Below are positions 3,101 to 62,148 of a stretch of DNA of 64,000 bases, one piece after another. The notes below the pieces were generated by a model, which made no database searches, was not told the origin of the DNA, and saw only the letters and a program-made list of their open reading frames with translations. The translations under genes and the position numbers were made by a program. This DNA comes from Saccharophagus degradans 2-40. GTDB lineage: Bacteria > Pseudomonadota > Gammaproteobacteria > Pseudomonadales > Cellvibrionaceae. The first letter of the stretch is position 1, and each line of letters opens with the position of its first letter. Location of the stretch: assembly GCF_000013665.1 (NCBI RefSeq), contig NC_007912.1, positions 4,525,684 to 4,589,683 of the forward strand, given 5' to 3'.

Positions 3101-3732
3101 TCTTTAATATCAAATTCCGGCTGCATGTTAGAAGTCGCGTCGCGTATGCGAAGCTCCAGCATTTTTGGGTCGTCGTCTTTTTCAACAACCATGGTGGCGG
3201 CGCGTTTGTAATCGCGGCTGTCTGGGCCTTTACCGGTAAAAACCGCAGTAATTTCGTGATCGCCCGTTTTAACGTTGCCTATATATAAACGCTGTATGCC
3301 GCCGCGAATTAACGCGTCATTTTCGCGCTCGGTGTATAGGTGCGAAGCAACAACTTGATCGTCTATTTTAAGCTTTACGGAATCCAGGGTGAAAAATTGG
3401 CCTACATCCATAGATAAAAACACCACCATTTGGGTGTTGGCAGGGAACAGCAGTTCCTCTTCAAGGATGAGCAGGTCACGGTTTAATTCTAGTGCTGCTT
3501 TTTTAAGGTCTTCAATATCTTCGCTAAGCGGTGATGCCGTGGCTTCGGTCACAGCAGCTTGTTCTGTTTCGCCCTCAGCTGCTTCATCTTGCGCAAATGC
3601 TGCGCCCGCCGCCAAGCACATTGCGAGGGCACCAAACCGAAAAAGGTTTAACACGCCAAGACCAAGGCCTTCTAATAGGCGTTTGGACCCACAAAATGCC
3701 AAATTTTGGCAGTTATTAACTCTCAAGGTCAC
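3088..3732 (-). CDS. small secreted protein, first gene of the three-gene envelope operon
   Basis: The 214-residue frame has a hydrophobic stretch LFRFGALAMCLAAGAAFA at about residues 30-47 that looks like a signal peptide, followed by an acidic Glu/Ala-rich segment and then a beta-rich domain (about 75-214). The leader is unusually long if the GTG at 3732 is used. An internal GTG just before LNLFRF would give a conventional signal peptide, so the start is uncertain. The end overlaps the 624-residue TPR gene by 13 bases. I recognise no family; similar proteins are sometimes misnamed AraC regulators, but there is no helix-turn-helix here. Role unknown, probably a periplasmic partner of the two TPR proteins. 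Confidence 0.65.
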   Translation of the reverse strand: MTLRVNNCQNLAFCGSKRLLEGLGLGVLNLFRFGALAMCLAAGAAFAQDEAAEGETEQAAVTEATASPLSEDIEDLKKAALELNRDLLILEEELLFPANTQMVVFLSMDVGQFFTLDSVKLKIDDQVVASHLYTERENDALIRGGIQRLYIGNVKTGDHEITAVFTGKGPDSRDYKRAATMVVEKDDDPKMLELRIRDATSNMQPEFDIKEWEL

Positions 3733-3909
3733 TCTCCAATAACAGGTTAAGCAAGGATAATAACGCCAGAAGGCGGCTTACCATTCAAACCTACATTAAA
3801 AAAAATAGCGCTATCGTCTAGGCCTGCGCGTAACTTTTTACGTGTAATGTGACACACGTTTGATTTCGATCGAGCGGATTGTTTTTGCGCCGACCTTATT
3901 GTTCGATTA
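3733..3909. promoter_or_regulatory. promoter region of the three-gene envelope operon
   Basis: The gap between the ApbE gene and the operon carries the operon's likely promoter on the minus strand. It includes an inverted repeat ACGTGT-N8-ACACGT at 3840-3859 that could be an operator. The right half also contains TGTGA but no matching TCACA, so I do not call a CRP site. No clear terminator for apbE is visible. Confidence 0.3.
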
Positions 3910-4920
3910 TCAGTCTGCAGCTGCAGCTTCGGCTGGCGCGAGGCCGGCGCTGTAATGCACCTTACCTTGGCGATCTATAATTATGCCGTCCACTCCTTGC
4001 AAACTGTTGACCAACTCTAGCCCTTTTTCTACTCCCAGTACAAATACTGTTGTAGATAACGGGTCTGAATCTAACCCCCGTGGCGCCAATATAGTTACAC
4101 TGGTCACTTCCGAAGCTGACTTACCGGTTTTGGGGTTTAGAATATGGTGCACGCGCTCGCCAGTATGCTCATCAATAAAATAGCGCTCGTAGTCGCCAGA
4201 GGTAGACACAGCCGTATCGGTTAACGGAATGCGAATCGCAGCTTTGGCGGCTGGATCCTCTGCCCTTGGGTTTTTAATGCCCACTACCCACGGCCTACCT
4301 TGCCTGTCGCCCAGTAAATAAGAATCCCCGCCGGCACTAACACTAGCGTGTTCGACCCCCATTGTGCGCAGTATTTTAATTGCGTTATCAACCGCGTACC
4401 CTTTAGCAATACCCCCCAAATCAATTCGCACATTTTTATGCTTAAAGAATACACTGCGTGTTTTTTCGTCTAATACAATCAAGCGATAGTTGATGGCGGG
4501 TAATAAATTTTTTATTTCATTTTCTTGCGGTTGTTGATGTGCTCGATAATCGTAACGCCAACCAACAGAGGCGAAGGTAATATCAAAAGCTCCGCCGCTC
4601 AATGCACTTACGCGTAAAGAGTGATGGATTAGCCAATAAAATTCTTCAGAGATTTTTTGCGGGGCTGTAGCTGCATCGCGATTGACGCGCGCCAGCTCAC
4701 TGGTTTCTAGATAGGGCGAAAGCAGTTGGTTTATGCGCTCCATTTCGGTCATTACCGATGTAATGGCAAGCTTGGCGTGCTCGGGGTTTTCATCCCATAA
4801 GGTAACGGAGATTTCCGTGCCCATTATTCCTTGGGTTTCGCTATGCCATAGCGCCCATGCGTTAGAGGCTAACGCAACATAAATAAATAAACCTACAGCA
4901 AGGCGAGTGGGGTAGCGCAT
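3910..4920 (-). CDS. apbE: ApbE-family FAD:protein FMN transferase
   Basis: The 336-residue protein matches the ApbE family, which uses Mg2+ to move FMN from FAD onto a Thr of target proteins such as NqrB, NqrC and RnfG in the periplasm. Visible family landmarks are MGTEISVTLWD near the N-terminus, the DLGGIAKGYAVD segment, SAGGDSYLLG, and the metal-site region STSGDYERYF. The start at 4920 is chosen because MRYPTRLAVGLFIYVALASN begins a normal signal peptide ending near AWA; the frame stays open 20 codons further upstream but that part looks non-coding. There is no lipobox Cys, so it would be soluble rather than a lipoprotein. It lies 141 bases downstream of gspN on the same strand and may be transcribed with it, but a functional tie to secretion is not evident. 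Confidence 0.9.
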   Translation of the reverse strand: MRYPTRLAVGLFIYVALASNAWALWHSETQGIMGTEISVTLWDENPEHAKLAITSVMTEMERINQLLSPYLETSELARVNRDAATAPQKISEEFYWLIHHSLRVSALSGGAFDITFASVGWRYDYRAHQQPQENEIKNLLPAINYRLIVLDEKTRSVFFKHKNVRIDLGGIAKGYAVDNAIKILRTMGVEHASVSAGGDSYLLGDRQGRPWVVGIKNPRAEDPAAKAAIRIPLTDTAVSTSGDYERYFIDEHTGERVHHILNPKTGKSASEVTSVTILAPRGLDSDPLSTTVFVLGVEKGLELVNSLQGVDGIIIDRQGKVHYSAGLAPAEAAAAD

Positions 4921-9695: not shown

Positions 9696-10283
9696 CTAAA
9701 GATTGCGCTCTTTTATTTCATCCAGCACTTCTTGCTGCTCTTTCCAAACAACCTCGCCCCACAGATTTACCGCAACGGTTTCGAGCAAATCGTTTTCTAG
9801 CTCGTGGGTAAACTCTATTTCAAACGGCGTAACTTCACCGGTTGGATAAAAGACTATTATGGGCTCCGAAATTTCTGGCGCCTCAGCACTATAGGACCAA
9901 AGCTGCTCTTCTAGGGTAATACCCAGCAATATATCGCGCTCTATTTGCTGCTTTGGCAAACTTTCTATTTCCTGCCAACCCTGATGCGTCATTTTGCGCC
10001 AGGCGTAAGACCAACCGTTGTTATCTGGGTCTTTTTGCCACTCTGGCGGCTCTAAAATTAAGCCGATAGGTTCACCACTTACAATGGCCATTTCCGCTGC
10101 AAATTTAGACCAAAGAGTAAATTCCTCTACTGTTTTTTGCATGCGCTTGCTGGGGCCATCGTCTCCAAAGTTAAATAAAACCAAAGAGAAAACCAGCCCC
10201 ACCATCATCAACACAACCATGATTTCTATAAGCGAGAAACCTTTATTGCGTTTATTCACAGCGGGGAACCTATATAACGTCAA
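9696..10283 (-). CDS. gspH: type II secretion minor pseudopilin GspH
   Basis: The 195-residue protein has the prepilin site KG|FSLIEIMVVLMMVG at residues 15/16. The globular part with TGEVTPFEIEF resembles the GspH beta-sandwich. GspH links the tip complex to the GspG shaft. The start directly abuts the end of gspG. Confidence 0.94.
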   Translation of the reverse strand: MTLYRFPAVNKRNKGFSLIEIMVVLMMVGLVFSLVLFNFGDDGPSKRMQKTVEEFTLWSKFAAEMAIVSGEPIGLILEPPEWQKDPDNNGWSYAWRKMTHQGWQEIESLPKQQIERDILLGITLEEQLWSYSAEAPEISEPIIVFYPTGEVTPFEIEFTHELENDLLETVAVNLWGEVVWKEQQEVLDEIKERNL

Positions 10284-10724
10284 TTAATTTACTTCGTCCC
10301 ACACACTTACATCTGCGTTTTCGTCAACGCCGCCGGCCAACCCATCTGCACCTAGGGTATAGATATCGTAAGGGTGAGAATCTGCTGGGCTTAGGTATTG
10401 ATAATCGTTGCCAAACGCATCTTTAGGAATCGAATCCATGTATCCACCCTGTGGGTAGTTGCGAGGCTCTGGCGATGTAGAAGGTTTATTCACCAACGCA
10501 TCCAAGCCTTGCTCGGTAGTTGGGTAAGTGAAGTTTTCTACCTTGTACATTTTTAATGCTGACTGAAAGTTTTTTAAATCGGCGCGGGTTTTTTGCTTGT
10601 AACCCTGACCTAATACACCCATAACTTTCGGGCCCACAATCGACATAAGCAGGCCGATAATTACCAACACCACCATAATCTCGATAAGGCTGAAACCTTT
10701 TTGTTTACCGCTTTTTGTTCGCAT
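10284..10724 (-). CDS. gspG: type II secretion major pseudopilin GspG
   Basis: The 146-residue major pseudopilin has the prepilin site KG|FSLIEIMVVLVIIG at residues 10/11. The C-terminal half shows the calcium-loop hallmark DAFGNDYQYL...GADGLAGGVDENAD. The frame is open for 27 more codons upstream, but the start at 10724 is favoured: it is preceded by AGGTG seven bases before the ATG and gives the usual short basic leader. GspG polymerises into the shaft that pushes folded cargo through the GspD channel. Confidence 0.96.
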   Translation of the reverse strand: MRTKSGKQKGFSLIEIMVVLVIIGLLMSIVGPKVMGVLGQGYKQKTRADLKNFQSALKMYKVENFTYPTTEQGLDALVNKPSTSPEPRNYPQGGYMDSIPKDAFGNDYQYLSPADSHPYDIYTLGADGLAGGVDENADVSVWDEVN

Positions 10725-10794
10725 TACTTTCACCTGTAATTTCCTTAACTTAAAACCCAGTAAGCTTGTGGCGCTTACAAACCAATTGTAAAAA

Positions 10795-12030
10795 CTAACC
10801 TGCAATCATGTCGTTCATCGCAAATATAGGCAGTAGAATTGCCATTACGATAAAAATAACAATACCCGCTAGCAACAACACAATTGCCGGTTGCAACAGG
10901 CCCATTGCAGTATTAATAGAAAACTCCAACTCGCGCTCTTGGTTGCGCGCAGCGTACAGTAATTGCTCATCTAGCTTGCCGTTAGACTCACCACTCGCCG
11001 CCATTTGCACTAACAAGGGAGGGAATACTTTAGCCTGATCTAACGCGCGACTTAACGAGCCACCTTCTTGCACGGCAATACACACCTGCTCGCTAGCGAG
11101 TTTCATTTCGCGGTTAGACAGTACTTGAGTAGCAATACGCAGCGCTTCTAACAGCGGCACCCCGCTGTGCGCAAGCAAACCTAAGGTTGAGGCATAGCGA
11201 GCAGTTTCGCCCAACAGTACCACCGAGCCAATCACCGGTAACTTTAATACAGTGCGATGCCATTTAAGCTTGCGCGCATCGTTTTTAAGTAACCACTGAA
11301 TAAAAATAAATATTGCCGTCACACCGGCAAATAAGAATATGCCGTAGTCCACCATAAAATTACTGGTGGCAACCAAAACCTTGGTAATACCTGGCAGTTC
11401 GTGTTTACCGCGCTCAAACAATTGCGTTAACTGCGGTACCACTTTAACCATAAGTACGGTTACAACACATACGCTAACAACCAACATAACCACGGGATAC
11501 ACCATGGCCATTTGAAGTTTTTGTCGTGTTTCTTGGCTGCGCTCTGTGTATTCAGCAAGCTGCTCTAACACCGGTCCTAAAAAGCCAGAGGATTCACCGG
11601 CGCGCACCATTGCCCGATATAAGTTATCAAACACTCTTGGCACTTCGGCCATGGCTTGATGCAGACTTATACCTTCTAATACACGCGCCCTAACTTGCAG
11701 TAATACACTTTTGGCAACAGGCTTACGCGATTGTTTGGCTGTAGATTGCAGCACTTCATCGAGCGGCAACCCCGACTGCACCAGCGACGCCAATTGACGC
11801 GTAACAAGCGATACATCGCGGTAGCCTAAACGCGGGCCACCAAAAAAACTGCTGTGGCTTTTGGCCGTTTTCTCTGACGAGCTTTTACGCCCAGAGGAGG
11901 ATTTTACATCTAGAGGCTTTAGCGATTGTGCGCGCAACTGCGTGCGGACGTGACGCTCAGAGTCGCCCTCGATAATGCCTTTTACTTTTTTACCTTTGGC
12001 ATTCAGAGCCTGATATGTATATGCGCCCAT
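10795..12030 (-). CDS. gspF: type II secretion inner-membrane platform protein GspF
   Basis: The 411-residue polytopic protein begins MGAYTYQALNAKGKKVKG, a near-universal GspF start, and has two T2SSF repeats, each a cytoplasmic helical bundle followed by membrane helices (about 175-200, 226-246 and 380-402). It forms the centre of the inner-membrane platform. It lies 21 bases downstream of gspE and 70 bases upstream of gspG, which suits unequal expression of the abundant pseudopilin. Confidence 0.96.
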   Translation of the reverse strand: MGAYTYQALNAKGKKVKGIIEGDSERHVRTQLRAQSLKPLDVKSSSGRKSSSEKTAKSHSSFFGGPRLGYRDVSLVTRQLASLVQSGLPLDEVLQSTAKQSRKPVAKSVLLQVRARVLEGISLHQAMAEVPRVFDNLYRAMVRAGESSGFLGPVLEQLAEYTERSQETRQKLQMAMVYPVVMLVVSVCVVTVLMVKVVPQLTQLFERGKHELPGITKVLVATSNFMVDYGIFLFAGVTAIFIFIQWLLKNDARKLKWHRTVLKLPVIGSVVLLGETARYASTLGLLAHSGVPLLEALRIATQVLSNREMKLASEQVCIAVQEGGSLSRALDQAKVFPPLLVQMAASGESNGKLDEQLLYAARNQERELEFSINTAMGLLQPAIVLLLAGIVIFIVMAILLPIFAMNDMIAG

Positions 12031-54189: not shown

Positions 54190-57100
54190 CTATCTATTCA
54201 AGTAATCCATTAACCAAGTAAGTGCCGGTCTGGGTGTTCCGTTACTGTGCAACAATCCCGTCCCATCGCGCCAAGTAGCCCCAACAACATACCCCCAAAT
54301 AGTAATGCCTTTCACCGATGGATGGTTATAAAACAGCGGGAACTGAGTTTGCATTACGCGCAGCTGTTCTTGGTCGTTAGTTTTTTCTATATCGTATTCG
54401 GATATATAAATGGGTAAACCCAATGCCGCAACCTGGTTTAGTTTGGTTTCTAAATCACTTAAAGACCAATCCGCTAAGCCGTGTGCTTGTAATCCAATTG
54501 CATCTACAACGCCTGCATTGACAGCCGGAGTAGCCATCTGGATAAACTCTTGAGTGTTCCAACTTAAAACATTGTAATCGTTCAATATTAAAATGCTGTT
54601 AGGACAATATTGACGAGTAAGCTCGAACGAACGAATGATCCAATTATTGCCAAACGCACTCGCCGCGTAGTTAGCAGGAGCATGGCCCAGCGTTGCTTCG
54701 TTTACCACATCAATCATTTCAGTATCAGGATAGCGCGCACAATAATCTCTTATCCACTCCTCTATCTCTGCAGCCTGTTCTGCTGGGCTGAGCGAATCAA
54801 TCCAGTTGGGCTGTTGGCTACCCCACACCATAGTATGCTGTTTAAACGGAATATTATTTTGTTTGGCGTAGTTATAGGCTCTGTCTAGTCCACTCCAATC
54901 ATACACATCACGAGTGCGTTCTACCGAACCCCACTTTCCTTCATTTTCTGGTGTTAGTTGATCCCAGTACTGAGTAAAATCATTGCGCACATTGCCATTA
55001 GTGGTAATGTTACCCACAAAAAATCCCACTTCGTTTTTGGGCGTGACCTCTCCACCAATAGAAAACTCATCGGCATAAAAACTTACGCTATCGCTTTCTG
55101 ACTCGATAATAAAATGCTCAAACGCTGTGCCAGTTTGAGTGTATTGCCCGTGCAGCAGCACCCATTCAGAATCGTTAGCAATGGTCGTGACTATGCCGGT
55201 ATATTCGTTATAAGTGGAATCGTCGCTATCATTTTGTCGTTTGGCGGTAAGCGTAATAGGTGTGTCCGCACTGCCTGCCGCAAGTTTTACCCACACCGCA
55301 ACTTCGTACAGGTTGCCTTGCGTAAGCTCACCAACACTGAACGTCAAACCGTGCCAGTTTTCTGCTCGATTTGTTATACGCGCGCTTGCGTTTCCGCTAT
55401 AACGTTGTTCAGTAGAACGTGTTACTGAACCCGCCGTTGCGCCCCAGCTCTGCAGGTTGTTTTCTACACCACCATTGACTGCGAAATTATTACTCGGAAC
55501 GGTATAGCCTCCCGATGAACTAGAGCTTGATGTGGAACCGGAAGTAGAACTTGTTGTAGAGCTGGAGGAAGACGAGCTGGCACGTGTAGCACAAAATCCT
55601 ATGCCACTCTGGCTTTGCCCTGCTTGCAACGTATTATTCCACTCTACCCCGCTTACGTTAAGTATGTTCCCGCTCTGCGACCAGCTAGCATTCCACATAC
55701 TGTCGACACTATCGCTCATAGAAACACTAGCTTGCCACTGCAGAGCGTTGTTCGTGTTATTGGTAACGGTAAGCTCCGCACAATAACCACTTTGCCAGTC
55801 GTTAGTAACATTTATAGAGTAAGTAACGTTACCAGTTGGCGCGGCGCCAGAGGAACTACTCGAGCTGGTTGAACTTGAGCTAGTCGTTGAACTACTGCTG
55901 GAGGTAGAACTTGATGAGCTGTTATTGGTTTGAATACTGCCCGCGGAGGCTACCAACGTGAGGGTATCTAATTTGGCGCCATCTTCACGCCGAAGTAGAG
56001 TAAGAATGTGATTCCCAGGGCTAAGACCAGTGAAGGTGTTGGGCGTGAGCACCTGCCAACCAGTGGTAGCTTGATTATTAAAAGTCTGCCAGCTATTACT
56101 GTTTAGCTTGTAATAAAACGAATCATCATTGCCATTAGCAAGATTCACGCGTACGTTAAATTCGACATCGGAAGCTTGCGATAGAGTAAATGGGACACTG
56201 ATTTGGCCTTGCGATTGCTCGCTGGCCACACTGAGAATCTGATTGCTCCCATCATTACTCCATTCAATGTAAGCGCCGTTATTAGCCATGTTATCGGAGC
56301 GTACGCTAAGGGGAGCAAAAAGAGATTGCGAAGCCAAGTCTTCCAACTCAACCGTTAGCTGACTGCTTCCTCCATTATTTTCGCCTTCAAATTCAAACCA
56401 ATTTAGGTTGTGCCCAGAAGTACCGCGCAGGTATACATCGTGAACACCAGTTATTGCATTAAAACTTGTGCTTTGTGTTTGCCAATTTTGCCACCCGCCT
56501 GTGTTGGTAATTTCGAGCGAGGCATGCGGGGTATTACTGAGACTGCCTAAAATAATTTCCAGCTTTGAATTATCGATTGCGCTAGCAACTCGAGCGTTAA
56601 ATTGTGTGGCGCCGTTACCAAAATCGACGTTAGCAACTTTTACCCAATCTCCTGGGCCCATCTGAATATTCAAGGTACCTTCAGAAGACGGCTCAGTTTC
56701 TATGCCACCTTCTTGATCGAATGTTTCTGCTTGGTTTATGGAAAAAGCATTAACATTACGTACCGCGGGTACACCTATTGAACTGGCATTTACTTCTCGA
56801 ATACTGCCGTCGGAATTGTAGTAAAGACGATCCACGTTAATAGAGCGGGAAAAGGTACTATCGCCCCGCGTATTTGCGACAGCTCTATTGTGGTAAAAAA
56901 TGTACCATTCGTTATTAAATTCAATAATTGACTGGTGGTTGTTATTGGAATTATTTTCCCAAGGGTTGGGCAAAATGGTGCCGCGATGGGTGAACCCTGA
57001 GGTAGGGTTATTACTCGTCATGTAATCTATGCTCATCCCCGCGCTGGGGTTGGTCGAGTAGGATAAGTAGTAAATGCCGTTGCGCTTATGCATGTATAGC

Positions 57101-57750
57101 GCTTCAAAGAAGTTAGGTACGTCAATACTTATGGCTGCACCACTGGTACTTATCATGTCGTTATTTAAACGAATAACGCGCGCGGTTCCATCAGCGCCTC
57201 CACCAAAGTACAAAAAGGCTTGTCCGTCGTCATCAATAAATACACCGGGATCGAACAGCCAGTCAACATTGGCATTGGGGGTATTGCGGTCAACCAGCGG
57301 CCTACCGAGTGGATCAGTATAGGGGCCCTCAGGGCTATCGGCCACAGCGACACCAATAGAGTTTGCGCCGTTGGGAAAGTACAGGTAGTACTTTCCATTG
57401 CGCTCGATAAAATCTGGGGCGTAAGCAAGACTGGCCCAACTACTGTCTGTTCGAGAATTCCACACAATACCGTGATCTTGCCAATTAACCATATCGTCCG
57501 ATGAGAACAGGTAGTAATCAATCAAACCACCGTAATCATTTTGGTTATCCTGATCGTGGGTAACCATTACATAGGCTCTTCCGTTTATTACCCGTGCAGC
57601 AGGGTCTGCGGTATATACATGAGACACAATAGGGTTACCTGCCCAAGAGATCGAGGCCGTGCAGACGCTAAGTAACACGCACAGACCCCAACCTACATAG
57701 GCAGAAATCTTTCGCTTAACAATGGGTGTTGATTGGGTGCTTCGCAACAT
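54190..57750 (-). CDS. bifunctional GH43-CBM-GH10 hemicellulase with polyserine linkers
   Basis: The 1186-residue secreted enzyme has a signal peptide (about 1-37) and then GH43 (about 40-325; putative base Asp49, acid Glu216 in NFFEALYMH, Asp167 in WLFDPGVFID). CBM6 follows (about 338-456), then a second beta-sandwich, probably CBM6/35-like (about 465-600), a polyserine linker (611-635), CBM2 (about 640-722), another polyserine linker (725-746), CBM22 (about 753-898) and GH10 (about 905-1186; acid/base Glu1018 in VVNEA, nucleophile Glu1118 in YISEYD). It pairs an arabinofuranosidase/xylosidase-type activity with an endoxylanase. Polyserine linkers are typical of Saccharophagus and Cellvibrio. 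It probably matches a Xyl/Arb43-Xyn10 type gene. Confidence 0.94.
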   Translation of the reverse strand: MLRSTQSTPIVKRKISAYVGWGLCVLLSVCTASISWAGNPIVSHVYTADPAARVINGRAYVMVTHDQDNQNDYGGLIDYYLFSSDDMVNWQDHGIVWNSRTDSSWASLAYAPDFIERNGKYYLYFPNGANSIGVAVADSPEGPYTDPLGRPLVDRNTPNANVDWLFDPGVFIDDDGQAFLYFGGGADGTARVIRLNNDMISTSGAAISIDVPNFFEALYMHKRNGIYYLSYSTNPSAGMSIDYMTSNNPTSGFTHRGTILPNPWENNSNNNHQSIIEFNNEWYIFYHNRAVANTRGDSTFSRSINVDRLYYNSDGSIREVNASSIGVPAVRNVNAFSINQAETFDQEGGIETEPSSEGTLNIQMGPGDWVKVANVDFGNGATQFNARVASAIDNSKLEIILGSLSNTPHASLEITNTGGWQNWQTQSTSFNAITGVHDVYLRGTSGHNLNWFEFEGENNGGSSQLTVELEDLASQSLFAPLSVRSDNMANNGAYIEWSNDGSNQILSVASEQSQGQISVPFTLSQASDVEFNVRVNLANGNDDSFYYKLNSNSWQTFNNQATTGWQVLTPNTFTGLSPGNHILTLLRREDGAKLDTLTLVASAGSIQTNNSSSSSTSSSSSTTSSSSTSSSSSSGAAPTGNVTYSINVTNDWQSGYCAELTVTNNTNNALQWQASVSMSDSVDSMWNASWSQSGNILNVSGVEWNNTLQAGQSQSGIGFCATRASSSSSSSTTSSTSGSTSSSSSSGGYTVPSNNFAVNGGVENNLQSWGATAGSVTRSTEQRYSGNASARITNRAENWHGLTFSVGELTQGNLYEVAVWVKLAAGSADTPITLTAKRQNDSDDSTYNEYTGIVTTIANDSEWVLLHGQYTQTGTAFEHFIIESESDSVSFYADEFSIGGEVTPKNEVGFFVGNITTNGNVRNDFTQYWDQLTPENEGKWGSVERTRDVYDWSGLDRAYNYAKQNNIPFKQHTMVWGSQQPNWIDSLSPAEQAAEIEEWIRDYCARYPDTEMIDVVNEATLGHAPANYAASAFGNNWIIRSFELTRQYCPNSILILNDYNVLSWNTQEFIQMATPAVNAGVVDAIGLQAHGLADWSLSDLETKLNQVAALGLPIYISEYDIEKTNDQEQLRVMQTQFPLFYNHPSVKGITIWGYVVGATWRDGTGLLHSNGTPRPALTWLMDYLNR

Positions 57751-58170
57751 GATGACTCCTTATATTTTTATATGGATTTGTCCAGCATAAAAGTCACTTA
57801 CCCAAAAATGTGCAATTTCCACTCGGTAAAGTAGTTTGTGATCACACGCTATAGTTTGAGTAACGCCGCCAACGGGATGAATTAAATGAGCAACCCGTAT
57901 TTGGCGAGCAACAGTACCTTTACACTTAGCCAAGCAACATGAACTGAGCTTGGTATTGAGCAGGCTAGAGAGAGGGCATTCGAAGATCTTAATATTTTGT
58001 ATAAAATACTTATGGTGTGCGAAATGTATAAAAATTGATGTTAATTTTGCTAGCTAACGTTTAGCCATGGAGCATTCTTGCGCTTAGAACATTTATTAAA
58101 TGACGCAACAATAATTAAGCGGAGTAAAATATGTATAACGTGCCAATTCGTTTACATTTATGGGAACCAA
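57751..58170. promoter_or_regulatory. region between the GH43-GH10 gene and the membrane AraC regulator
   Basis: A 420-base AT-rich gap holds the hemicellulase promoter on the minus strand. It includes the perfect palindrome TGTGATCACA (57837-57846), about 87 bases upstream of the start. Its spacing is wrong for CRP. A possible 18-codon frame with a good GGAG site starts at 58131 but overlaps the regulator's end. Confidence 0.4.
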
Positions 58171-59328
58171 CTAAAGCTGTGAAATAGTCGACTGAGCTTT
58201 TATATGTTTAGTTTTATACACTTTTGGCGTGCACTGATAGGTTTCTTTAAATAGCCTATTGAAATACGACACATTTTTGTAACCAACATACAAGGCCACT
58301 TCCGAAATGTTGACATTATCATTACTGCTTAGCAATCTAGCGGCTTCGTCTAAACGCAACCAGTTTAAATAACTGCTGAAGGTTTGGCCAAATTCCTGTT
58401 TTAAAATATCATTCACTTTATTTCTATTAATCCCCAAAGTACTTGCAGTGTACGCTAAGCTAAGTTCGCCATTGCGGTACTGGGCATCTAAAAATGTAAT
58501 GAGCTGCTGTTTTTCCTTCGCTCTGTAAGGCAGTAATTCCACAGCTTGTGGCAGGCCAACATGACTAGGTAATGTATTCTGGCGAATACGGCGAACAAAA
58601 CCACGCAGGGCCCAAACAGCATATACAAGCCAACCAACAACCAATATAACAATGTATGCGTAAATGACAGGCCATTTAAACCCATTTAGTTGTAACTGAC
58701 TAACCTTAACGTTAGTTACCAAGTTCATTGGACCGTGTCGAGAAGCCCCAAAGGTAAGAGCGCGTGTTTTTTTAAGATTGTAGCTTTGATCCGAAAGCGG
58801 CATATTAAAACTTTCTAACCACCACCTTGGGGCTGGAATATGATGTAAATCCACTTCAATAGTTTGCCATTTATTTTCGCAGTTAAATAAATGGCTCACA
58901 ATTTTAAACGTGGGAAACTCGCTAGGTTTTGTTACGGTGGCATCGAAAGTAGCCACATTAAAAGAGAGCATATTTGTGTGCTGACACTTAATATCGAATG
59001 ACACCGTTTGATAATGACTAAGGTCTACATAAGAACTAGCTTGCTCCTTGTGATCGAAATCCAGCACAGAAATAACATAGGGGTAAGCCAGCTGTGGTGT
59101 GATTTGGTAGTCGAAATCTAAAGCGTAATCGCTGTCCTTTAGAGCAATGTGCGACGCCCCTCCCATTTCGCTATCACTAATGGTACGCGCAGTCCATTGA
59201 TGCTGGCTTCGCGGTGCAGGAAGCAGTGAATGCTGTGTAGTAGCCAGCCAAAAGCTCAGCCCAGCCCCCACGATAGAACTGCTTATCAATAGTACAAACA
59301 CTATGGTCTTAGTATGTGGGCTGCGCAT
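58171..59328 (-). CDS. membrane-anchored AraC regulator with CIA30-like periplasmic sensor
   Basis: The 385-residue protein has a membrane helix at about 8-30, a periplasmic domain (about 31-218) that opens with SDSEMGGASHIAL, a motif like the DGVMGG start of CIA30/CBM11-type jelly-roll domains, a second helix at about 219-241, and a cytoplasmic AraC DNA-binding domain (about 275-372: LAYTASTLGINRNKVNDILK, ISEVALYVGYKNVSYFNRLF). This makes it a one-component transmembrane sensor-regulator. It reads toward the GH43-GH10 gene from directly upstream on the same strand, so that gene is the likely target and a xylan or arabinan oligosaccharide the likely ligand (inference). Confidence 0.88.
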   Translation of the reverse strand: MRSPHTKTIVFVLLISSSIVGAGLSFWLATTQHSLLPAPRSQHQWTARTISDSEMGGASHIALKDSDYALDFDYQITPQLAYPYVISVLDFDHKEQASSYVDLSHYQTVSFDIKCQHTNMLSFNVATFDATVTKPSEFPTFKIVSHLFNCENKWQTIEVDLHHIPAPRWWLESFNMPLSDQSYNLKKTRALTFGASRHGPMNLVTNVKVSQLQLNGFKWPVIYAYIVILVVGWLVYAVWALRGFVRRIRQNTLPSHVGLPQAVELLPYRAKEKQQLITFLDAQYRNGELSLAYTASTLGINRNKVNDILKQEFGQTFSSYLNWLRLDEAARLLSSNDNVNISEVALYVGYKNVSYFNRLFKETYQCTPKVYKTKHIKAQSTISQL

Positions 59329-59730: not shown

Positions 59731-60516
59731 GTGGCAGTGGGTAACTATCATATGACACGCGCATTTGGAGGTTCGCCAATGGAGGCGCTTAGGGCTGGGG
59801 CAATTGCAGGTGCAAGTGCATGGGCTTTTAGTAATGCGGTTGAGTGGGCTGGTGCTACGGCATCGGCGCCTGGCGAAGGGTTAATAAGGGTTTCACAAAA
59901 TACTTGGGCTACCGCAGAGCAGTTTAGGCGGTTGGTGATGATTCACGGTGCAATTGGCGGTGTTTCTTCCGTACTACAAGGAGGTAAGTTTGGCCACGGT
60001 TTTGCTAGTGCTGGGGTGACTAAGCTGCTGTCGCCGTCCATTGGGAATATTAAGGCAGGGAGAATAGGTAATATTAGTGTTGTCCAAACATTTACCGCGG
60101 CGGCCTTGGGGGGCTCTGTTTCAAAGGCCACTGGTGGTAAGTTTGCTAATGGGGCTATTACTGCGGCTTATAGGAATTTGTTTAATCAGCAGGGGGAGGT
60201 TGATAGACGTAAAAAAATGAGTGTAATTAAAGAATCTGTTGCTGACTATCGTGAATTAATATCAACAGTAATGAGTGATTTAGACAGCGGTGGTGATCCA
60301 AGGTCCGTCAGTTTAATTATTGAGGGATTTAATGGTGAGACTCAAGACGCCGCTTTTACAGCGCTTTTGAAAGTTGATCAAAAGTTGGCGCAAATTCAGT
60401 TTCAGCTTATGAATGAATCTGGGGCAGCATTCATTGATTCGGTGACAAAAAATATTGTAAAAAGTGCAGGGGGGAAGCTTAGTAAACCTCAAACTACGGG
60501 GGGGGGTCGGAACTAA
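59731..60516 (+). CDS. orphan Rhs-type toxin tip, interrupted by a frame break
   Basis: The 261-residue frame starts at GTG and contains AIAGASAWAFSNAVEWAG and the segment GGSVSKATGGKFANGAITAA, which closely resembles the Gly-rich pretoxin region just before the variable toxin in Rhs and similar polymorphic toxins. No Rhs repeat core lies upstream; instead a dispersed repeat and hairpin stop 10 bases before the GTG, so this is a displaced C-terminal cassette. The frame ends four codons after a run of nine G (60498-60506). The next frame stays open to 60664 and overlaps the start of the next gene, so the intended protein probably continues there. The toxin's activity cannot be named. Confidence 0.7.
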   Translation: MAVGNYHMTRAFGGSPMEALRAGAIAGASAWAFSNAVEWAGATASAPGEGLIRVSQNTWATAEQFRRLVMIHGAIGGVSSVLQGGKFGHGFASAGVTKLLSPSIGNIKAGRIGNISVVQTFTAAALGGSVSKATGGKFANGAITAAYRNLFNQQGEVDRRKKMSVIKESVADYRELISTVMSDLDSGGDPRSVSLIIEGFNGETQDAAFTALLKVDQKLAQIQFQLMNESGAAFIDSVTKNIVKSAGGKLSKPQTTGGGRN

Positions 60517-61749: not shown

Positions 61750-62148
61750 CTAATTCCGCGCCCCACGCCTAACCTCACCTGCGGTTTGTTTAAATTCGCT
61801 TTTAAATGCGCGCGAGAAGGCGGCTTCGGATTGGTAGCCAATTTTATCGGCTACTATTGCTACGGGTTCGCCATCGGCTAGTAGGTGCCACGCGAGTTGC
61901 ATGCGCCACCAGGTGAGATATTGCATTGGGGTCCAGCCGCTTAGTTCTTTAAAGGCGGTTGCGAATGCTGTGCGCGACATGGCTGCTTGCTGCGCCAGCG
62001 CTTCTAGGCTCCAACTTTTTGCTGGGTGGTCGTGCATGGCTTGGATGGCAGCAGAAAGCCGCGGGTGGGCGTAGAGTGCAAGTAGGCCGGTTTGTACCGT
62101 GCTGTCTCCTATGCAGTTTGCCATTGCAGCTAAAACTCTGACACCCAC
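61750..62148 (-). pseudogene. truncated AraC-family regulator
   Basis: The frame gives 132 residues, of which about the last 125 are the C-terminal end of a cupin-type AraC regulator: HPRLSAAIQAMHDHPAKSWS, LEALAQQAAMSRTAFATAF, TPMQYLTWWRMQLAWHLL and IADKIGYQSEAAFSRAFK. The first codons lie inside dispersed repeat copy C, so the N-terminal cupin domain has been lost where the repeat begins. Both helix-turn-helix motifs are intact, so a DNA-binding fragment could still be made if a promoter remains, but loss of the sensor domain argues for a pseudogene. Confidence 0.8.

Follow-up and report, generated by a model that had tools for sequence, protein, structure and literature searches.

A membrane-bound AraC-type regulator with a CBM11-fold sensor domain next to a GH43-GH10 gene in Saccharophagus degradans 2-40, and its relatives

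The window analysed here is a stretch of 64,000 nucleotides of the Saccharophagus degradans 2-40 chromosome, to which all coordinates without a prefix refer. It contains the gene of a membrane AraC regulator, identified as Sde_3613 through the match of its neighbour, an open reading frame (ORF) on the minus strand that runs from an ATG at 59328 to a stop at 58171 and codes for 385 residues; frame 1 of the plus strand across 58171-59328 is riddled with stops. The adjoining GH43-GH10 gene, pointed out by the first-pass annotation, lies on the same strand, 420 bp past the regulator stop, and fits Xyn10D (Sde_3612), given in Table 9 of PMC3124978 as a 129.6-kDa protein with GH10, GH43 and CBMs 2, 6 and 22 (Table 1). 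Upstream of the regulator, a plus-strand ORF (59731-60516) shows a weak DUF637 match (possible hemagglutinin, E 0.041) and possibly codes for part of a polymorphic toxin or of a secreted repeat protein. A minus-strand ORF of 132 residues (61750-62148) comprises barely more than an AraC DNA-binding domain and may be what is left of a longer regulator.

Table 1. Coordinates of the features of the regulator locus and of an unlinked gene preceded by a family operator.
Feature	Coordinates	Strand	Basis
Membrane AraC regulator gene, 385 aa, Sde_3613 (neighbour match)	58171..59328	-	ORF and Pfam
First membrane helix, residues 5-29	59242..59316	-	predicted structure; hydropathy
CBM11/CIA30-fold beta-sandwich, residues 30-217, presumably extracytoplasmic from topology	58678..59241	-	model, fold comparison
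Cys115, candidate disulfide with Cys150	58984..58986	-	alignment
Cys150, candidate partner of Cys115	58879..58881	-	alignment
Trp169-Trp170	58819..58824	-	invariant in 44 aligned full-length members, four phyla
Second membrane helix extending as cytoplasmic helix, residues 219-252	58573..58674	-	model; hydropathy
AraC DNA-binding domain, residues 268-384	58177..58527	-	Pfam, model, fold comparison
GH43-CBM6-CBM2-GH10 protein, 1186 aa, Xyn10D, Sde_3612, presumed target	54190..57750	-	Pfam; PMC3124978
Intergenic region of 420 bp, from Sde_3613 stop to GH43-GH10 gene	57751..58170	-	no tandem family operator
Hotdog-thioesterase-like gene, 142-residue ORF	G000:C1:3768521-3768949 (L202:8525-8950)	-	predicted structure of homolog

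The Sde_3613 protein is genuine and well formed, a membrane regulator of the AraC kind whose sensor is of CBM11 type. Its output domain belongs to the AraC/XylS type, with an HTH_18 match over residues 295-372 (E 2.7e-20; 72.9 bits against a cut-off of 33.6), and HTH_18 is matched at E <= 0.1 by all 44 family members. An AlphaFold2 run on a 44-row alignment of family proteins gave a model with a mean pLDDT of 91.3 and a pTM of 0.63, in which confidence is low for linker residues 253-266. The two membrane helices of the model flank the sensor, and the hydropathy maxima (residues 8-26 and 221-239) agree with them. Sensor and DNA-binding domain are thus carried by one chain with membrane helices, as in one-component membrane regulators, and a Pfam scan detected neither a kinase nor a receiver domain, which sets the protein apart from the hybrid two-component systems (HTCS). 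On the paired helices, the AraC output and the absence of a kinase, the earlier reading of the sequence was right.

That reading also held that the layout had no standard name, which proves mistaken. Sde_3613 belongs to the membrane-bound one-component HTH_AraC factors of S. degradans tabulated in 2008 (PMC2386152), where Table 2 lists 'HTH_AraC (3613), 2 TM' next to 'beta-1,4-xylanase (3612)' and, likewise, 'HTH_AraC (0324), 2 TM' next to 'Cellulase (0325)'; TfoS (PMC7564644) and SusR (PMC3878776), discussed below, are also known kinds. According to the 2008 paper, 16 of the 31 AraC regulators of strain 2-40 are membrane-bound, 4 of the 6 AraC factors listed have 6-7 TM regions, and a role in detecting extracellular polysaccharides is proposed (PMC2386152). 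Both the layout and the sensing hypothesis were therefore already in print. The section of that paper on these factors names no sensor fold, operator or outside relatives, and our literature search found no later test of the sensing idea for Sde_3613 and no expression or binding data on it; nor was a report of the sensor fold or the operator found in the largely open-access literature of PubMed Central. The present analysis adds the wider family, its sensor fold, the predicted operator and the link to the thioesterase. Many further AraC genes of this genome (L112-L126) code for a hydrophobic N-terminal part ('FNFHDVVL...').

The S. degradans genome codes for three paralogs of identical layout, one at locus L016 (Sde_0324 in PMC2386152), flanked by genes for GH10 and GH5, and two in tandem at L017, where a GH10 gene is transcribed divergently from them. 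All three family loci (four genes) adjoin a GH10 gene, and three of the five GH10 genes of the genome adjoin a family locus. Tandem regulator pairs, besides the one in S. degradans (L017:9780-12094), occur at L063:8866-9990 and 9956-11089 and at L072:1998-3113 and 3110-4192, in Bacteroidota and Spirochaetota. With regard to the signal, Xyn10E (Sde_0323) and Cbm2C (Sde_0182) figure among the examples detected by culture-fluid mass spectrometry on xylan and not on Avicel in Table 6 of PMC2386152, among which Xyn10D does not appear. By length and domain, Xyn10E (670 aa) is the GH10 protein of L016, and Cbm2C (933 aa) is the neighbour at L017; xylan would suit as the signal of these paralogs.

Outside this genome, one other genome of the genus (84% complete) gave no more than a weak match, in a frame of 455 residues, and a search of a plasmid collection gave none. 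In a scan of one genome per species, the best 80 of 463 relatives were kept. Of these, 31 (L032-L062) come from Cellvibrionaceae, Alteromonadaceae and Massilia, with L040, L051 and L056 assigned only to Gammaproteobacteria, and 12 (L063-L074) are distant relatives from Bacteroidota, Spirochaetota and Fibrobacterota with the same layout as judged by ORFs, which makes 43 same-layout relatives in four phyla; the other 37 (L075-L111) match in the HTH region only and served as controls. The same architecture recurs beside CAZyme genes: a GH- or CE-type gene matching our seeds lies within two ORFs at 30 of the 43 relative loci against 0 of the 37 controls, a contrast that is biased because the seeds were taken from family neighbours and from the S. 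degradans genome. The 13 loci lacking such a neighbour include some on short contigs, and the seed count missed a GH95 gene (L034:7255-9789), a GH30-CBM2 gene (L051:7593-9299) and a GH16 gene (L043:11918-17146) recognised by Pfam. Pfam tallies, which are free of the seed bias, gave GH5 11, GH43 4, GH18 4, GH42 3 and GH10 3 for the 79 nearest family neighbours (best 25 of 71 families), and GH31 2, GH130 2 and amylase 1 for the 69 nearest neighbours of the HTH-only AraC genes (best 25 of 113 families), these controls coming largely from other taxa.

In a midpoint-rooted tree of 47 rows, all 35 proteins from Pseudomonadota group in a single clade (100/100). Sde_3613 branches near the base, with an unresolved fork, on an end branch of 1.19 changes per column. 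As judged by eye, the neighbouring enzymes follow the clades, with GH10 in one, GH5 in another, GH42 and GH39 in Massilia, GH18 and CE2 in Bacteroidota, and GH16 in Fibrobacterota.

The domain between the two helices had been described as a CIA30-like sensor, which stands at the level of fold (pLDDT 91) and fails at the level of sequence. The top Foldseek hit is CBM11 from C. thermocellum (E 3.4e-10), ahead of NDUFAF1 and CBM30, and VIA-align ranked CBM11 (1v0a; Z 16.9, rmsd 3.3, 163 aligned) and NDUFAF1/CIA30 (7zkq; Z 16.3 over 164 residues) as tied, followed by agarase and xanthanase modules with Z about 13; the sandwich as a whole falls in the CBM11/CIA30 fold group, a carbohydrate-type fold as the first-pass annotation had anticipated. 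The Pfam CIA30 model (PF08547) matches Sde_3613 with an E-value of 0.071 and 13.6 bits, below its cut-off of 24, and is matched at E <= 0.1 in 3 of the 44 family members, at best with 0.0018. A profile of the sensor found nothing up to E 10 among PDB chain sequences, so that the link to CBM11 is structural only. When the whole protein was compared with the PDB by phmmer, the AraC part was matched, and the hits to an iodotyrosine deiodinase (E 0.26) and a tail-fibre protein (E 0.11) were dismissed as chance. The sensor thus has its fold in common with the CBM11 of C. thermocellum Lic26A-Cel5E and with CIA30/NDUFAF1, but it shares no sequence match with them at curated cut-offs, and whereas the former is an enzyme module and the latter a mitochondrial assembly factor, the sandwich of Sde_3613 is part of a regulator. 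Cys115 and Cys150 are invariant in 26 aligned Pseudomonadota sensor domains (of 35 available) and absent from the Bacteroidota rows among the alignment rows listed.

NDUFAF1 has the same fold in a mitochondrial assembly factor, and the fold alone is no proof of sugar binding. The sandwich might instead bind no sugar and act as a protein–protein or structural module that senses a partner, such as a working transporter or a binding protein; the tie between NDUFAF1 and CBM11 would suit such a role, as would the position of the invariant Trp pair, which the model places in a short helix (residues 168-173). Against this, the neighbouring enzymes vary by clade, by eye, among GH5, GH10, GH42, GH39, GH16, GH18 and CE2, as would suit a changing ligand, and we hold a sugar-blind sensor to be rather improbable. 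The CBM11-type fold supports a carbohydrate module, and Sde_3613 is discussed below as a putative sugar receptor.

A related sensor also occurs outside AraC proteins. In a profile search of 61 genomes from the taxonomic family of the host, 25 have a sensor match; 50 of the matches are strong (E < 1e-38), and the 15 weak ones fall in frames 440-477 residues long. Among 28 strong-match loci taken, the 18 readable on the plus strand all have an AraC C-terminus, recognised in 16 by pattern and in 2 by eye, and the one weak-match locus read (L153) has a C-terminal end that is GGDEF-like by eye. Three S. degradans proteins likewise combine a TM-sensor-TM front end with GGDEF: L018:7045-8415 (weak sensor match, GGDEF end by Pfam), its tandem neighbour L018:5692-6999 (GGDEF by Pfam, sensor likeness by eye) and L127:2532-3887 (weak sensor match, GGDEF end by eye).

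We then considered the DNA targets. In 26 intergenic regions beside family genes, our own expectation-maximisation program found a motif of width 24 (consensus CTTCAACTTTTnGCAnTTT) with a log-likelihood of 188.1, against 74.1-88.3 in 4 shuffled sets, which were given 25 starts and 30 rounds against 40 and 40 in the real run, the loci themselves being related. The predicted AraC-like operator reads CTTCAACTTTTnGCA and often forms a 21-bp direct repeat, as in L036, L040, L041, L059, L061, L062 and the S. degradans locus L016; 21 bp is the spacing of I1 and I2 in AraC. At 64-66 bp past the start of the downstream half-site, 20 of 27 sites (15 at exactly 65) display a -10-like box, TAnnCT or TAGGAT, and at 26 other distances it occurs in 0-2 of the 27, a sample that includes close kin (L052, L054 and L055; L062, L040 and L160) and in which L191 repeats L061. 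The box is lacking in L016, L033, L035, L036, L038, L051 and L202, and the S. degradans sites have TAATGT (L016) and TAATGC (L202) at 65 bp in place of the common box. This operator–promoter architecture is conserved beside many relatives: operators lie next to GH5, GH10, GH30, GH95 and hotdog-thioesterase genes, and the Cellvibrio GH10 loci have a single clear half-site at the same distance from the box.

Outside the discovery set, the divergent GH95 gene of L034 has upstream of it a 30.0-bit site followed by TAGGCT at 65 bp, an 18.5-bit site with the box TACTTT precedes the divergent GH30-CBM2 gene of L051, and a 17.0-bit site lacking a box is found just behind the regulator in L032; the operator test failed in L037, L057 and L058. 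Weak sites ahead of the regulator itself occur in the near-identical Massilia loci L046-L049. A joint model of operator and box was trained on 16 sites, picked after viewing the 27 and omitting L016, L033, L035, L036, L038, L051, L054, L060, L166, L191 and L202; its operator is not the top regulator-adjacent site in L017, L033, L037, L038, L045, L057, L058 and the Sde_3613 locus, and the intergenic region of the L017 pair has no recognisable operator.

At the scale of whole genomes, a first pattern without an A-tract spacer was abandoned, with 17 matches at 0-1 mismatch (4 of them behind a regulator) against 23 for the reversed control. The refined tandem pattern with this spacer gave 9 matches at 0-1 mismatch in the 61 genomes, a count that is not blind because the pattern was refined after viewing the first matches, 5 of the 9 (G021, G026, G046, G050 and the unlinked S. 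degradans site) being already among these; in addition, the G000 L016, G046 and G053 sites are identical to sites of the discovery set (L016, L041 and L061). Only 0-1 mismatch was used because at 0-3 mismatches 98 matches stood against 85 in the reversed control, which was not split by mismatch. All 9 fall in genomes with a strong sensor match, and 8 lie 522-573 bp past the end of that match, thus just behind the regulator gene.

The ninth match is perfect, belongs to S. degradans (C1:3769047-3769077) and is unlinked to any family gene. It is located about 100 bp ahead of a 142-residue ORF that matches no Pfam family, but whose homologs adjoin the regulator at 7 of the 43 relative loci (L040-L044, L059 and L061). 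For the homolog at L061, the predicted structure (pLDDT 84.4) is that of a hotdog thioesterase; 3e1e matches it best (7.9e-7), and the first 31 structural matches include PaaI and 4-hydroxybenzoyl-CoA thioesterase. The gene is present in 8 of the 61 genomes, all among the 25 with a sensor match and 7 of them near the regulator, a co-occurrence with a chance of about 4e-4 if the genomes were independent, which they are not. As a guess, the putative enzyme may handle aromatic acids freed from arabinoxylan.

In contrast to many of its relatives, Sde_3613 has no recognisable operator in the intergenic region that precedes the GH43-GH10 gene. The best tandem site there scores -7.4 bits (rank 78 of 127,916), the best joint site reaches 5.4 bits (rank 32 of 127,856), neither this nor a weak half-site, CATCAATTTTTATACATTT, near 58022 is significant, and no significant CTTCAAC-type half-site is followed by a box at 64-66 bp. 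A TAGCCT box was considered and rejected, the half-site at 65 bp being poor (-2.2 bits). The best direct repeat was equalled in 128 of 200 shuffles, and the best at 21 bp in 191 of 200; a promoter and terminator scan remained at chance level. Control of the GH43-GH10 gene by Sde_3613 therefore rests on adjacency and kinship. Either the site has drifted along with the diverged protein, or Sde_3613 acts elsewhere.

Taken together, these data make it likely that Sde_3613 is a membrane-bound one-component activator of the AraC/XylS type, with a CBM11-fold receptor, that acts on a nearby CAZyme promoter. The periplasmic domain would serve as the receptor, most likely for a xylan-derived oligosaccharide; binding would be relayed to the AraC domain by the second membrane helix with its cytoplasmic extension, and this domain would then bind an operator by the CAZyme promoter and help RNA polymerase to start. 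Both the outside-to-inside direction of the signal and activation rather than repression are parts of this proposal, and for its own locus we infer the GH43-GH10 gene as the target. An unlikely alternative is that Sde_3613 regulates CAZymes at other loci or through a different site, its adjacency to the GH43-GH10 gene being a relic of duplication. The intergenic region devoid of a family operator agrees with it, and since the perfect S. degradans operator precedes an unlinked gene, members of the family probably can act at distant sites. However, Marinimicrobium agarilyticum (L050) keeps the order of regulator and GH43-GH10 gene, the latter about 190 bp on, with 65 bp between a half-site and a TACTCT box (this locus belonged to the discovery and training sets), which is the strongest comparison in favour of action on the GH43-GH10 gene; moreover, the operator of Sde_3613 may have drifted because the protein is on a long end branch. 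That CAZyme adjacency merely reflects chance in CAZyme-rich genomes is very improbable, since, although 17 other S. degradans AraC genes also have some CAZymes among their 34 neighbouring ORFs (GH5 3, CBM6 2, acetylesterase 1; best 25 of 47 families), the matches to our biased seeds fall from 29 of 79 ORFs at distance 1 to 7 of 76 at 2, 9 of 135 at 3-4 and 3 of 246 at >=5, the unbiased Pfam tallies differ from those of the HTH-only controls, and the operator, inexplicable by chance, comes close to refuting it.

The putative sugar-responsive activator has counterparts among known systems. TfoS of Vibrio is likewise a membrane-bound AraC-family protein, tied to chitin sensing, and V. parahaemolyticus that lacks it expresses less chitinase (PMC7564644); its periplasmic domain, by the description given there, is akin to the sensors of hybrid two-component systems, whereas that of Sde_3613 is a CBM11-type sandwich. 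SusR of Bacteroides is also a single polypeptide with a periplasmic sensor and a cytoplasmic DNA-binding domain, and, akin to the Sde_3613 family, governs polysaccharide genes with predicted direct-repeat sites (PMC3878776). However, its DNA-binding domain is described as having no significant similarity to known factors, unlike the AraC domain of Sde_3613, and its repeats are spaced by 67 or 77 bp, compared with 21 bp in the Sde_3613 family (PMC3878776). HTCS, including the xylan system of Cellvibrio japonicus, have CAZyme control through an AraC-type output in common with Sde_3613 (PMC10766802), but they carry a histidine kinase and a receiver, both missing here.

For the largely open question of how Gram-negative bacteria with many wall-degrading enzymes choose among them, a 2024 review gives HTCS, sigma/anti-sigma pairs and catabolite repression as the canonical models (PMC10766802). 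Sde_3613 probably serves to turn on enzymes that degrade plant walls whenever their substrate is close by. With about even confidence, we propose more broadly that these proteins are cross-phylum membrane AraC activators in which a CBM fold is the direct periplasmic receptor, that each clade is adapted to the polysaccharide on which the adjacent enzyme acts (for example xylan, chitin or beta-glucan), that a related receptor serves diguanylate cyclases, and that part of the family reads a 21-bp direct-repeat operator set at constant spacing from a weak promoter, with the hotdog thioesterase also under its control. For a one-protein switch whose fold is known and whose operator is predicted, direct questions can be put, namely, which sugar and which promoter, and, if it works, it would provide a small sugar-responsive switch for engineering.
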